A DNA stretch of 64,000 nucleotides from Candidatus Nitrospira allomarina (GTDB lineage Bacteria; Nitrospirota; Nitrospiria; Nitrospirales; UBA8639). The position numbers and the translations under genes are program-made. The notes under the pieces were generated by a model. The model saw nothing but the letters and a program-made list of their open reading frames with translations, made no database searches and was not told where the DNA came from. Positions 12,813-17,033 of this stretch are shown here, one piece after another; within the stretch, counting starts at the first letter, position 1, and the number at the start of each line of letters is the position of its first letter. Where the stretch lies: the NCBI RefSeq assembly GCF_032050975.1, contig NZ_CP116967.1, forward strand, positions 3,841,001 through 3,905,000. Reading direction: 5' to 3'.

Positions 12813-13265
12813 TTAGGCAGTCTGTTCGATGTGTGGCAGAAACTTTCCATTCCAGGTCATGACGACACGGTCCTCTCCTTTGTCACCCTTAATCTTCTCG
12901 ACGGTGAGCTTAAAATCAATCGCCGACATAATCCCATCACCGAACTGCTCATGCAGGATGTCCAGAATGGACTCCCCATAATGGGCGCACACTTCAGTCA
13001 TGCGGTAAATATGTGGCTCCTGCAGGACCGACGGATCATAGGATCGCATGGGAAACTCCCGCATCGCTTCAAGCAAATTTCCTGTGAGTCCCGGGACCAG
13101 CTTGACGAGCTTGATCTCGGTATCCTTCTTGAGTTGCGCCTGCAATCGGAATAACTGGGCAACATAGACATTACACAGCCCGAGGGCTGCTGCTAACTGG
13201 TCGTACGTCTTTCCTGAGGCCTTTTTCGCTGCAAGCAGTTGGCCGACAAGTTCCTTTTTATTCAT
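12813..13265 (-). CDS. cynS: Cyanate hydratase (cyanase)
   Basis: Breaks down cyanate with bicarbonate to ammonia (via carbamate) and CO2. The 150-residue length is close to the family norm of about 156. The catalytic triad known from the E. coli enzyme is present: Arg88 and Glu91 in IYRMTE, and Ser114 in GIMSAIDF. The N-terminal helical domain (residues 1-75) is followed by the compact catalytic domain. I chose ATG 13265, with AGGGAG six bases upstream, over a GTG at 13271 that would overlap the ribosome-binding site. No cyanate transporter or carbonic anhydrase is adjacent. Family knowledge: nitrite-oxidising Nitrospira use cyanase to release ammonia for partner ammonia oxidisers. Confidence 0.96.
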   Translation of the reverse strand: MNKKELVGQLLAAKKASGKTYDQLAAALGLCNVYVAQLFRLQAQLKKDTEIKLVKLVPGLTGNLLEAMREFPMRSYDPSVLQEPHIYRMTEVCAHYGESILDILHEQFGDGIMSAIDFKLTVEKIKGDKGEDRVVMTWNGKFLPHIEQTA

Positions 13266-13726
13266 TCTCACTCCCTACCCCTTTCAAGCCACCGAATGGT
13301 TGATATTCTCATGAACCCCATTAAGTTGAAATACTCTTCTCTGCCTCAGGTCCTGACAATACGTTAGGCGGGGAGTATGGACGTGTCAATCTAATATTCA
13401 CGCACCTGCGTGGGTCCGGTAGGTGCAGGAGAGACCATGAAGCCTTGCCGGATTTCCCTTCCAAAGAGGAAGCGCTCCAGCGGTCCAAGGAGTTTCCGCG
13501 TACCAATTCCCATTACCCTCCCCGGTCCTGCTCATGTTTTAGGCAATTCCTGGTTTCATTCTCCTCAAATCTCCCTTTATCCCGTAATACTTCCCTCCGC
13601 CACCTCCTAAACTGAGGAGGCCTTTATGAGGAAAAAAGAGCATAAATACACAATTTATAGCCTCCTGACCCCTCCCTATTTCACCATGGTTCTGGTAGGT
13701 TAGAGACTTCTTTTTTGGAGCAAGCT
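13266..13726. promoter_or_regulatory. Divergent upstream region of cynS and fabF, with a hairpin over a short ORF's ribosome-binding site
   Basis: This gap must hold the divergent promoters of cynS and the fabF operon. At 13603-13620 a CCTCCT/AGGAGG hairpin with a six-base loop would hide a strong Shine-Dalgarno sequence. That site precedes a 25-codon open frame at 13626-13703, which begins MRKKEHKYTIYS and ends 23 bases before the fabF start. It could be a leader peptide or chance. Confidence 0.35.
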
Positions 13727-14980
13727 ATGGCAGCGCGCGTGGTCATTACCGGGCTTGGCATCGTCTCCCCTATCGGGGTTGGCGTTCCTACGTTTTGGAA
13801 GTCCGCCCTGCAGGGTAAAACGGGGATAACAGCGATCTCATCTTTTGGGGATTTCCCCATGGAGTCCTATCGCTCCAGGGTTGGGGGGCAGGTTTCCGAC
13901 TTTGGCCTTCCCGATCCTTCAGAAGATAAATTCTCATCGCGTGTGGACCGCTATGCACAATTTGCCCTTGCCGCCACACGGGAAGCCATTCAGGATAGTG
14001 GACTGGACCTTGAGAAGGAACCGGCTGAACGGATGGGAGTGATGGCCGGTGTGGGCATGGGCGGGATGATGATGGGGGAACGTGAACTCACCACCCTCTA
14101 TCAGTCCCGTAAGCCACATCGGGTGCATCCGAACTTTATCCCGACCATTACGCTCAACTCTGCCTCTGGCATTCTGGCGTTGGCTTTTGGGGCAAGGGGC
14201 CCTAATCTCACCATTTCTACGGCCTGCTCCTCCAGCATTCATTCTATTGGACAAGCCCTACAGGCCATTCGCCTGAACCAGGCAGACGTCGTCATTGCCT
14301 CAGGAGCGGACGCCAGCATTACCCCGTTGGTATTTGCCGGCTTTTGCTCATTACGTGCCTTATCCACCAAATATAATGACCACCCCGATCAGGCCTCCAG
14401 GCCATTTGATCAAGGGCGGGACGGATTTGTGATGGGGGAAGGGGCCGGCACCCTGATCTTGGAATCCCTTCGCCATGCGACCCGTCGAAAAGCGAAAATA
14501 TATGCGGAACTGGCCGGATATGCCGCCACCAGCGAAGCGTATCATATGGTGATTCCCAGAGAGGATGGCTCCGATATTGCGCGAACCGTTACCTTGGCAT
14601 TGAAAGACGCCGGGGTTTCGCCCTCACAGGTAGACTATGTGAATGCCCATGCGACATCCACCGTGGTCGGAGACGATGTCGAGGTCAAAGGGTTACGGGC
14701 GGTGTTCGGAAAACGCCTGAATACCATCATGGTCAATGCCACCAAATCGCTCATTGGCCATACACTGGGAGCGGCCGGAGCGATCGGGACAATAGTCTCG
14801 GCCTTATCCATTCAAACTGGTATAATACATCCCACTGTAAACTATGATGACCCGGATCCCCATTGTGCCTTGCCGGGCCTTTCTACTAAGGTACAAAAAA
14901 AATCCGTTCGCGTGGGGTTGGTGAATGCCTTCGGTTTCGGAAGTAACAATGCGGTTCTGGTCTTAAAAAAGTTTTCATGA
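13727..14980 (+). CDS. fabF: Beta-ketoacyl-ACP synthase II (FabF type)
   Basis: Condenses malonyl-ACP with acyl-ACP to elongate fatty acyl chains in the cytoplasm. The 417-residue protein shows the thiolase-fold catalytic triad: Cys167 in STACSSS, a His in NAHATST near 308 and a His in IGHTLGAAG near 341. The C-terminal GFGSNNA is typical of FabF. I chose ATG 13727, because TTGGAG at 13715-13720 serves as its ribosome-binding site and makes the in-frame TTG at 13715 unlikely. The stop overlaps the next gene's start by four bases (ATGA), so it is translationally coupled to an acyl carrier protein and then lpxD. It is probably a dedicated, second-copy synthase. Confidence 0.92.
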   Translation: MAARVVITGLGIVSPIGVGVPTFWKSALQGKTGITAISSFGDFPMESYRSRVGGQVSDFGLPDPSEDKFSSRVDRYAQFALAATREAIQDSGLDLEKEPAERMGVMAGVGMGGMMMGERELTTLYQSRKPHRVHPNFIPTITLNSASGILALAFGARGPNLTISTACSSSIHSIGQALQAIRLNQADVVIASGADASITPLVFAGFCSLRALSTKYNDHPDQASRPFDQGRDGFVMGEGAGTLILESLRHATRRKAKIYAELAGYAATSEAYHMVIPREDGSDIARTVTLALKDAGVSPSQVDYVNAHATSTVVGDDVEVKGLRAVFGKRLNTIMVNATKSLIGHTLGAAGAIGTIVSALSIQTGIIHPTVNYDDPDPHCALPGLSTKVQKKSVRVGLVNAFGFGSNNAVLVLKKFS

Positions 14981-15348
14981 AATCTTCCGTCAACAAATCC
15001 TCTCAACTCAGTCAGCAGGTGTACCACACCCTCGGTAAATACCTTCAACGCGACCCGAAAGATCTACATCCTGAAGATTCGCTTCGTGATGATTTGGGGT
15101 TGGACTCTCTGCAAACCATCGAATTAGTCTATGAAGTCGAATCGGCTTTTGATCTTCAAATACCGGATGAGGACTTCGGGCGTTTAACGACCATCGGCGC
15201 AGTCATCCTTTATCTGGATGAACGAATACATGGTAAAGGGAGCGCCCTCTCCGGCCCTCAAGCCACACCGTCGGCCAAGAATTCACGCCCGACTCCACTT
15301 GGCAAAAAACCCAAAAGCCGTCCCACTTCAAAAAAATCGCGCACATGA
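14977..15348 (+). CDS. Acyl carrier protein with a basic C-terminal extension
   Basis: A 123-residue protein whose first 80 residues are a standard acyl carrier domain. The phosphopantetheine attachment site is Ser44 in [12 protein letters not shown]. The acidic helix II and helix III ([17 protein letters not shown]) follow. Unlike ordinary ACPs of 75-85 residues, it has a tail from about residue 88 rich in Lys, Pro, Ser and Arg (ending [10 protein letters not shown]). The tail may be disordered or bind membrane or nucleic acid. The gene overlaps fabF and lpxD by four bases at each end, which points to a carrier dedicated to those two enzymes rather than the general AcpP. Confidence 0.9.
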
Positions 15349-16454
15349 CGATATCGTCTTCCTCACGAACCGTGAATATTCCCCTTCAGGAATTAGCCCA
15401 AGCCATTCATGCCACCATTCACGGATCCTCTGACATTTTGATATCCGGTCTCTCCCATCTCGAAGGAGCCTCTTCCGGAGATATCTCCTTTGTCTTGAAG
15501 GCATCCTTCCAAAAACCGGCGCGTCAGTCACAGGCTGCAGCCTTAATTGTCACAGAGCCTATCCCCGACGACCCTCGACCACAACTCATCGTTCCGAATC
15601 CACTGGTCGCCGTCACGACGTTGGCTCAAAAATTTTTCCTCCCCCCTCTTCCACCACGTGGCATTCATCCCAGTGCTGTCTCCGGACTCGATGTGCGCAT
15701 TGGTCCGGATGTCTCAATTGGCGCCCTCGTCACAATTGGAGACCGTGTGCTCATCGGGTCCGGTGTCACCATCCATGCCGGAGTTCATGTTGGCGACGAT
15801 GCTATTATCGGGGACGAGTGCATCCTGTATCCCCATGTCTCGCTACTGACCAAGTGTGTCATCGGCAATCGCGTCATTGTACACAGCGGCACTGTCATCG
15901 GGAGCGATGGGTTCGGTTATGTGCAACACGAAGGCCGTCACCACAAAATCCCCCAATTGGGCCATGTGATCATTGAAGATGATGTTGAGCTCGGGGCCAA
16001 TGTGACCGTGGATCGGGCAACCTTTGGAAGTACCGTTATTAAGCGCGGCACAAAAATCGACAACCAGGTGCAGATCGCCCATAACGTGGTGATCGGGGAA
16101 GACTGTATTCTCGTCGCACAGGTAGGAATTGCGGGCAGTACTACATTAGGGCGCCACGTCATGGTGGGTGGCCAGGCCGGCCTGGTCGATCATGTCACCA
16201 TCGGTGATCAAGTGAAAATTGCGGCGGGTTCGGGGGTAACCAATAATGTAAAATCCGGTCAGATTGTGGGTGGTCGGCCGGCGGTCGAACATGGCATCTG
16301 GCGACGGTCACAGGTTCTTCAATACCAACTCCCCGAATTACGCAAGGAACTCCGGGCTCTTCAGAAACAGGTCCAACATCTTGAATCGCTTCTCCCGGAC
16401 CAATCTGCATCCATGTCTCCACCGGTCAAACGCCGTTCAACCTCAAAGCCCTAA
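15345..16454 (+). CDS. lpxD: UDP-3-O-(3-hydroxyacyl)glucosamine N-acyltransferase
   Basis: Transfers a 3-hydroxyacyl chain from ACP to the amine of UDP-3-O-acylglucosamine in lipid A synthesis. The 369-residue protein has an N-terminal uridine-binding domain (about 1-105), then a left-handed beta helix made of hexapeptide repeats (about 105-320), and a C-terminal helix. The catalytic His is in QIAHNVVIG, and the family's DGFGY and IPQLG segments are present. The usual lpxA, fabZ, bamA and skp neighbours are absent; instead it is coupled to fabF and an ACP. The last 25 residues are polar and extend slightly beyond the usual 340-residue length. It may be the only LpxD or a paralogue. Confidence 0.92.
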
Positions 16455-16493: not shown

Positions 16494-17033
16494 TTATCTC
16501 TTTTTGCGTGCTGGCAGCAACACCACTCCTTTCCAAAAAAACAACTTTGCCCAAAAATAGCCTGCCCAGGGCAGGGCAAACGCGGCGACCGGCTCCATAT
16601 AACCCGTGGCCACGGTTAATCCGGAAAGCGCAAAAAACATTACGATCCCCAGAAAGTACCAGAGCGGAACCAATCCACGACCTCGATGCTCAATGTCATG
16701 CTCCGTGATGGCTTTCTTTGCCTTACGGACCGACCGTTGGCTATAGGCTTTCATGCGACTGGCGAAATGTCCGGGAAACTCCCGCAAAAGATACTGTTGG
16801 TATTTTGTTTGAATGATCCCCACAAGCACCCCGGCGATAATGAGGGCCGAGCTGTAGGTAAAGGTTTCCCATCCATACGTTCCTGCCCAGAATTGAAAGC
16901 CTAAGGCGATCACTCCGACGACAACCGAAATCAATCCCAACAAACTGGCAGGAAGCAGAATATTGGTTCGGACAAACTCTTGGGCTTTTTCCGTATCGTC
17001 CTCATGACGTTTAGCCGTGATCATTTTTGGCAT
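16494..17033 (-). CDS. Small integral membrane protein of unknown function
   Basis: A 179-residue protein with four likely membrane segments (about 28-50, 58-75, 121-140 and 145-168). Between the two pairs lies a basic cytoplasmic loop (KAYSQRSVRKAKKAIT). I do not recognise a family. It begins 21 bases after yacG on the same strand, so the two are probably cotranscribed. The 3' end converges on lpxD with a 39-base gap. The protein ends in a Lys/Arg patch (ARKKR). Confidence 0.65.
   Translation of the reverse strand: MPKMITAKRHEDDTEKAQEFVRTNILLPASLLGLISVVVGVIALGFQFWAGTYGWETFTYSSALIIAGVLVGIIQTKYQQYLLREFPGHFASRMKAYSQRSVRKAKKAITEHDIEHRGRGLVPLWYFLGIVMFFALSGLTVATGYMEPVAAFALPWAGYFWAKLFFWKGVVLLPARKKR

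Follow-up and report, generated by a model that had tools for sequence, protein, structure and literature searches.

A beta-ketoacyl-ACP synthase, a tailed acyl carrier protein and LpxD form a recurrent gene trio in Nitrospirales that may supply acyl chains to lipid A

Why does the lpxD gene of Candidatus Nitrospira allomarina lie beside a condensing enzyme and an acyl carrier protein (ACP)? An earlier note on a 64,000-nucleotide stretch of this genome (the window) had described a fabF gene, the gene of an ACP with a tail of about 35 residues beyond the normal fold, and lpxD, joined by two four-base ATGA overlaps. From the double overlap it had derived a fixed stoichiometry, and it had suggested an acyl chain for lipid A or a related amide-linked lipid as the product. 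The three genes and both overlaps are indeed present in the sequence (Table 1); a promoter scan returned no match. We call the three trio proteins FabFt, ACPt and LpxD, with a t-suffix for the trio synthase and carrier. As argued below, the trio may represent a module dedicated to supplying acyl groups for the N-acylation of lipid A, providing its amide-linked chain, a reading to which our analysis assigns a probability of about one half.

Table 1. Coordinates of the trio and its flanking genes in the window.
Feature	Position	Strand	Remarks
FabFt, condensing enzyme of the beta-ketoacyl-ACP synthase II type, in a clade of its own	13727..14980	+	ATG start at 13727
Alternative in-frame start of FabFt	13715	+	TTG; also possible
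ATGA overlap, fabF stop / acp start	14977..14980	+	seen in sequence
ACPt gene	14977..15348	+	123 aa
ACPt core, residues 1-85	14977..15231	+	phosphopantetheine Ser44 in GLDSL, codon 15106-15108
ACPt C-terminal tail, residues 86-123	15232..15345	+	38 aa, net charge +10, predicted disordered
ATGA overlap, acp stop / lpxD start	15345..15348	+	seen in sequence
LpxD, UDP-3-O-acylglucosamine N-acyltransferase	15345..16454	+	only copy in the genome
LpxD C-terminal extension beyond E. coli residue 338	16377..16451	+	25 aa, weakly basic (last 20 residues net +3)
Cyanase (PF02560)	12813-13271	-	upstream of the trio; lptF-lptG in this place in other members of the order
179-aa protein	16494-17033	-	convergent to lpxD; no Pfam match

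The genome (one contig of 4,553,057 bases) contains a single full copy of lpxD, the other three matches of the genome search being weak and partial, with one of them corresponding to LpxA. Its bamA-skp-fabZ-lpxA-lpxI-mviM-lpxB cluster lies elsewhere and carries no lpxD between skp and fabZ, so that lpxD has, as proposed earlier, left its usual surroundings; lpxC is present in a single copy at another site. Because it is the only copy, the trio LpxD should be the lipid A enzyme, not an additional one serving some other amide lipid, which corrects the second product suggested by the earlier note. A second FabF, 44% identical to FabFt, adjoins a plain AcpP within an ordinary fab cluster (plsX-fabH-...-fabD-fabG-acpP-fabF-rnc). 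The search for second copies was thus positive for fabF and acp and negative for lpxD. Gene names in the fab and lpx clusters were assigned by eye from translations, with Pfam confirming LpxI, LpxB-MsbA and the reductase that precedes fabD.

Several other genes attracted attention in their own right. In the genome of the window, LpxB and an MsbA-like ABC transporter are encoded together in a single 960-aa open frame (PF02684, PF00664 and PF00005; L012:10509-13391, about 2880508-2883390 of contig C1). A third, untailed ACP of this genome is found in L009 (C1:72520-75711, at 7-2964), between the end of an AMP-ligase, a gene resembling NAD-epimerases and a member of the aminotransferase family. 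The latter appears by eye to be AONS- or serine-palmitoyltransferase-like and reads in two frames, suggesting a synthase gene that is broken or mis-assembled; we take this cluster to resemble a bacterial sphingolipid cluster. A separate locus (L015:3981-6683) encodes a 900-aa fusion of an AMP-binding enzyme, an ACP domain and a PlsC-type acyltransferase.

To place the trio in its phylum, we used 148 Nitrospirota genomes with a completeness of 85 or more, taken from a larger group. LpxD was detected in 143 of them, with one match each at E 1e-25 or better. The order of the window, Nitrospirales, accounts for 46 of the 148 genomes (six in the window's own family, f1, and 40 in f2), 44 of which carry lpxD. 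Leaving the window aside, 142 genomes carry lpxD, and we fetched the neighbourhood in 80 of them, namely in all 43 of the order and in 37 of the 99 outside it. The genes for FabF, ACP and LpxD are adjacent in 38 of the 44 sampled lpxD-bearing genomes of the order, window included, indicating that the trio is not due to chance. Outside the order, by contrast, lpxD is located directly before fabZ or lpxA in each of the 37 loci examined. The survey recommended in the earlier note thus bears out the unusual position of the gene. Relatives of the convergent 179-aa protein occur at all 43 fetched loci of the order, including those without the FabF-ACP pair.

Some genomes depart from this arrangement. 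In G127, the FabFt-ACPt pair lies about 27 kb away from lpxD, with the break falling within the ACP tail (loci L102 and L054), a separation that reflects either a rearrangement or a misassembly. The pair is absent at five lpxD loci of the order (L022, L024, L053, L060 and L023), one of which, L023, has kept a decayed ACP whose start resembles the start of FabF. A further genome, G084 (L103 / L237), shows lptFG and FabFt followed by unrelated genes, with neither ACPt nor lpxD adjoining; it has no lpxD match anywhere, yet contains lpxC, pointing to a deletion or an assembly fault. LptF and LptG matches accompany all 37 other trio loci and four of the six pairless or split ones; neither protein has a match anywhere in the window. 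When a tailed ACP was sought elsewhere in the pairless genomes, the single further ACP match in each of G056, G067 and G113 proved tailless, and G109, G141 and G137 yielded AcpP alone at E 1e-4, a threshold that weaker ACPs may escape.

The scan of named genomes relied on six short peptide patterns taken from the window protein; its figures cover the matches listed, so that absence elsewhere is not exhaustive. Among at least 80 named loci, 21 showed at least 62% FabF identity, the other 59 being ordinary FabFs at 47% or less. By the matches listed, these 21 comprise 18 labelled as members of the Nitrospirota (one as Nitrospinota) and three labelled Ca. Rokuibacteriota; 19 contain all three genes, including L127, whose lpxD is cut by the contig end, and 15 have a relative of the 179-aa protein. 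At the remaining two loci, the contig is cut after FabFt (L138) or the pair gives way to other DNA (L140). The lpxD gene of the latter genome is found on another contig, adjoining neither fabZ nor lpxA, yet its ACPt and its separated LpxD both still have basic tails (LpxD last 20 residues +8, counted by hand). The separation of the genes and the retention of the tails have opposite bearing on the supply-module reading.

Close inspection of the gene junctions speaks against a fixed stoichiometry, as derived from the double overlap, being a conserved property. The ATGA sequence occurs at both junctions in only one of the 38 surveyed trio loci, that of the window, at the ACP-LpxD junction alone in 13 and at neither in 24; overall, 14 of 38 loci, window included, have overlapping ACP and LpxD genes. 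Among the matches listed, 11 of the 19 named three-gene loci have the double ATGA, all of them with at least 74% FabF identity to the window. We therefore reject the double overlap as a conserved feature and regard it as lineage-specific.

FabFt represents a synthase type of its own. It passes the NCBIfam model TIGR03150 narrowly (495.1 bits against a cut-off of 493.75), and a search of 41 genomes recovered FabFt-type proteins, with 66-70% identity to that of the window, in 19 of 25 members of the order (window's genome included) and in none of the 16 genomes outside it, where the next best match reached 48%. In a 67-row tree obtained with a quick method, FabFt forms one clade (SH-aLRT 100, 100 starred; stem 0.86) that excludes every one of the 45 ordinary FabFs, those of Nitrospirota among them, although a long outside branch joins the FabFt clade and thus leaves the root unsure. 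FabFt did not group with the housekeeping FabF of its phylum in this tree, and its deep clade rules out that it is a recent copy of that enzyme. The Cys-His-His-Lys catalytic set is kept in all 61 FabFt sequences (60 distinct), and 24 positions are clade-specific fixed differences. E. coli position 108, presumably at the acyl pocket, is Met in 61/61 FabFts and Ile in 73 of 78 ordinary FabFs. On the ACP-facing helix, whose basic positions we take to be the AcpP docking site in E. coli, FabFt has lost the basic residue at E. coli position 68, and the charge of the patch shifts from +1 to -1.

The carrier is similarly distinct. ACPt passes Pfam PF00550, the normal PP-binding domain, while scoring below all 17 NCBIfam cut-offs listed for it, including those of the housekeeping AcpP models TIGR00517 (58.7 bits against 70.45) and NF002148 (63.7 against 71). 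An AlphaFold2 model built from 19 sequences (mean pLDDT 72.5) places helices at residues 5-23, 44-58, 64-69 and 73-85 of the core (block means 85-89) and predicts no secondary structure for residues 86-123 (block means 47-52 from residue 91). The tail noticed previously is thus real and predicted to be unstructured. Tails are found on ACPt in all 38 trio loci, ranging from 18 to 101 residues (median 32) with a net charge of +5 to +24; they consist of Lys, Ala, Pro, Ser and Thr, with 27% Lys and about 2% Asp and Glu. The earlier note had named sole copies of the three genes together with the same tail on other ACPs as grounds for abandoning its reading; we found instead a second fabF, a second acp and tailless AcpPs in 19 of 19 genomes. 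Compared with AcpP, ACPt is changed at E. coli positions 38 (Ala in 36/38), 44 (Tyr or Phe in 38/38), 45, 49 and 53, in and after docking helix II, and its core charge is -5 (-11 in the window) against -17 for AcpP. Judged from their sequences, the surfaces of ACPt and FabFt could be those of a matched, insulated pair.

LpxD passes TIGR01853 with 362.5 bits (cut-off 242.5), and the residue corresponding to E. coli His239, which we take to be catalytic, is kept in all 38 trio LpxDs. At the position of E. coli M290, assumed here to be the acyl-chain ruler, most LpxDs of either kind have Gly (33 of 37 canonical proteins, 37 of 38 from trio loci). Since both groups are alike, LpxD itself does not hint at a special chain, and we dismissed the ruler residue as a mark of one, with Gly present in nearly all Nitrospirota LpxDs examined. 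The C-terminal end of LpxD differs between lineages. In the 37 trio loci other than the window, the last 20 residues carry a charge of at least +5 in 37/37 LpxDs, in 0/37 FabFts and in 7 of the 278 other open reading frames of at least 170 aa, and they do so in all 27 ACPts counted, 10 of the 37 ACPts having been removed by the overlap filter. The corresponding value of LpxD is +3 in the window, -2 to +5 in eleven named relatives, 0 to +4 at pairless loci and -4 to +4 in 27 canonical proteins. In five independent contrasts, with a tail threshold of +3 that we chose ourselves, LpxD tail and pair occurred together 2.3 times on average and never in opposition, a result that is not significant. 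Given these contrasts and the weak tail in the window's lineage, the LpxD tail is no rule, and the case for its strictly accompanying that of the ACP is weakened. The basic LpxD tail as a companion of the ACPt tail is suggestive.

The history of the locus can be traced in the LpxD tree, in which the LpxDs of the order form one clade together with the trio LpxDs from a second phylum (100 starred). The order thus appears to have moved its native gene, and the single clade fits a history in which lpxD relocated once, in the order's stem. The state of the FabF-ACP pair changes five times on this gene tree, which is blind to gain versus loss; we read the changes as one gain and about four losses of the pair with lpxD kept. 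Such repeated loss indicates that LpxD can use another carrier and speaks against an essential role of the pair. In the second phylum (that of G148, a Rokuibacteriota record that also belongs to the sample), LpxD matches were present in 60 of 60 genomes, with two matches each in G166, G178 and G189. Among the best-scoring 30 LpxD neighbourhoods, from 30 of the 60 genomes, the trio appeared in three (G148, G150 and G167) and did not show in 27; the named scan added G149, giving four trio genomes at the loci seen. Their LpxDs nest in the clade of the order on two branches, and no match to the order's LptF or LptG was found beside the trio in these four genomes. G167 has a canonical lpxD besides that of the trio. 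These data are most simply explained by transfer of the whole unit, with contamination possible, above all for G167.

The trio resembles several known systems without coinciding with any of them. It shares the LpxD family and the conserved His with the canonical bamA-skp-lpxD-fabZ-lpxA arrangement, but its lpxD is relocated, has a private synthase and carrier and often encodes a basic C-terminal tail, whereas LpxD is normally taken to draw on the general AcpP pool. Mycobacterial AcpM likewise exceeds the normal ACP fold (chain of 115 residues, 1klp) and works with FabF-type synthases in the AcpM-KasA operon. However, neither a polycationic tail nor a link to lipid A is known for AcpM, and ACPt scores 39.7 bits against the AcpM model NF040636 (cut-off 146). 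We know of no earlier case of a dedicated carrier for LpxD, and a search of the open-licence literature likewise listed none; among the papers listed, nothing concerned the FabF-ACP-LpxD set, and none dealt in its title or abstract with the lipid A of these organisms. The supply-module reading has a parallel in the rhizobial AcpXL / FabZXL / FabF1XL / FabF2XL / LpxXL cluster for the very long chain fatty acid of lipid A, where LpxXL is reported to go on adding shorter chains in acpXL mutants (PMC5613085). Another account terms this system a unique case requiring a dedicated ACP (PMC8406137). In both instances, a dedicated ACP and a FabF-type synthase adjoin a lipid A acyltransferase, although in the trio we infer the service to LpxD. 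Moreover, the persistence of LpxD after loss of the pair parallels the fallback of LpxXL to shorter chains, so that the pair losses fit the same behaviour. Nevertheless, the trio is not a member of the AcpXL cluster: rhizobia use LpxXL, two synthases and the dehydratase FabZXL, a set that the trio does not contain, whereas it combines one synthase and a long basic ACP tail with an acyltransferase, LpxD, that acts at the primary amide step and is the only copy.

How might such a supply module operate? FabFt would perform the condensation that sets the chain length on a chain borne by ACPt, the housekeeping FabG would reduce the product to (3R)-3-hydroxyacyl-ACPt, and LpxD would then take the chain from ACPt to form the amide linkage on UDP-3-O-acyl-GlcN. 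The remodelled recognition surface could separate ACPt from the pool of AcpP. The polycationic, disordered tail of ACPt, assisted in most lineages by the basic LpxD tail, may hold carrier and enzyme at one anionic surface. The most likely candidate is the inner membrane, on its inner face, the site at which the lipophilic product would next be used. In this scheme, the pairing of FabFt with ACPt and of ACPt with LpxD, the identity of the chain and the target of the tail are all points that we infer. That the trio contains neither fabG nor fabZ, and that its adjacency is broken in G127, L140 and G084, bears against it. For the tail, a function as a membrane tether is conceivable, though doubtful. 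Equally conceivable, and viewed with the same reserve, is that the tails bind nucleic acid or polyphosphate or regulate the turnover of ACPt, with the module still feeding LpxD, an idea that concerns the tail only; the Lys, Ala, Pro, Ser and Thr composition with almost no acidic residues, which is like that of histone H1-type tails, and the predicted disorder agree with it.

Two further explanations concern the module as a whole. FabFt and ACPt could make a chain for another envelope lipid, for example one destined for phospholipids or for a secondary position on lipid A, and share an operon with lpxD and lptFG only for joint control of outer-membrane supply. In its favour are the loss of the pair while lpxD stays, the lptF and lptG genes at the 37 other trio loci, FabFt without lpxD in G084 and a pair apart from lpxD in L140. 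We nevertheless consider it unlikely, given that four genomes of the second phylum hold the trio without a match to the order-type LptF/LptG, that the genes for ACP and LpxD overlap in 14 of 38 loci and that LpxD and ACPt have a basic tail in common in 37 of 37. Still less probable is neutral reshuffling of operons, by which FabFt and ACPt would be redundant parts that came to lie beside lpxD by accident and the tail a drifting low-complexity extension. While the wide range of tail lengths among relatives (18-101 aa) and the repeated loss of the pair are compatible with drift, the set has been kept together in 38 of 44 genomes and recurs as a unit in a second phylum, the tails are basic in 38/38 cases as opposed to 7/278 other open reading frames in the loci, and FabFt has 24 clade-specific fixed residues.

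Returning to the supply-module reading, it is tempting to speculate, although with some hesitation, that the trio constitutes a transferable, order-wide cassette, in which a private synthase clade, a tethered carrier and a matching LpxD tail would take primary acylation out of the common pool and provide a lineage-specific chain. If the supply-module reading is true, the trio would be a second, independent route to specialised lipid A acylation, acting at the primary step and across the order Nitrospirales. The pairless relatives and the copies in the second phylum would then amount to a natural experiment, in which the lipid A of trio-bearing and pairless organisms is directly comparable. In addition, the ACPt tail suggests, in a simple and testable form, how a membrane might retain a carrier that is soluble.
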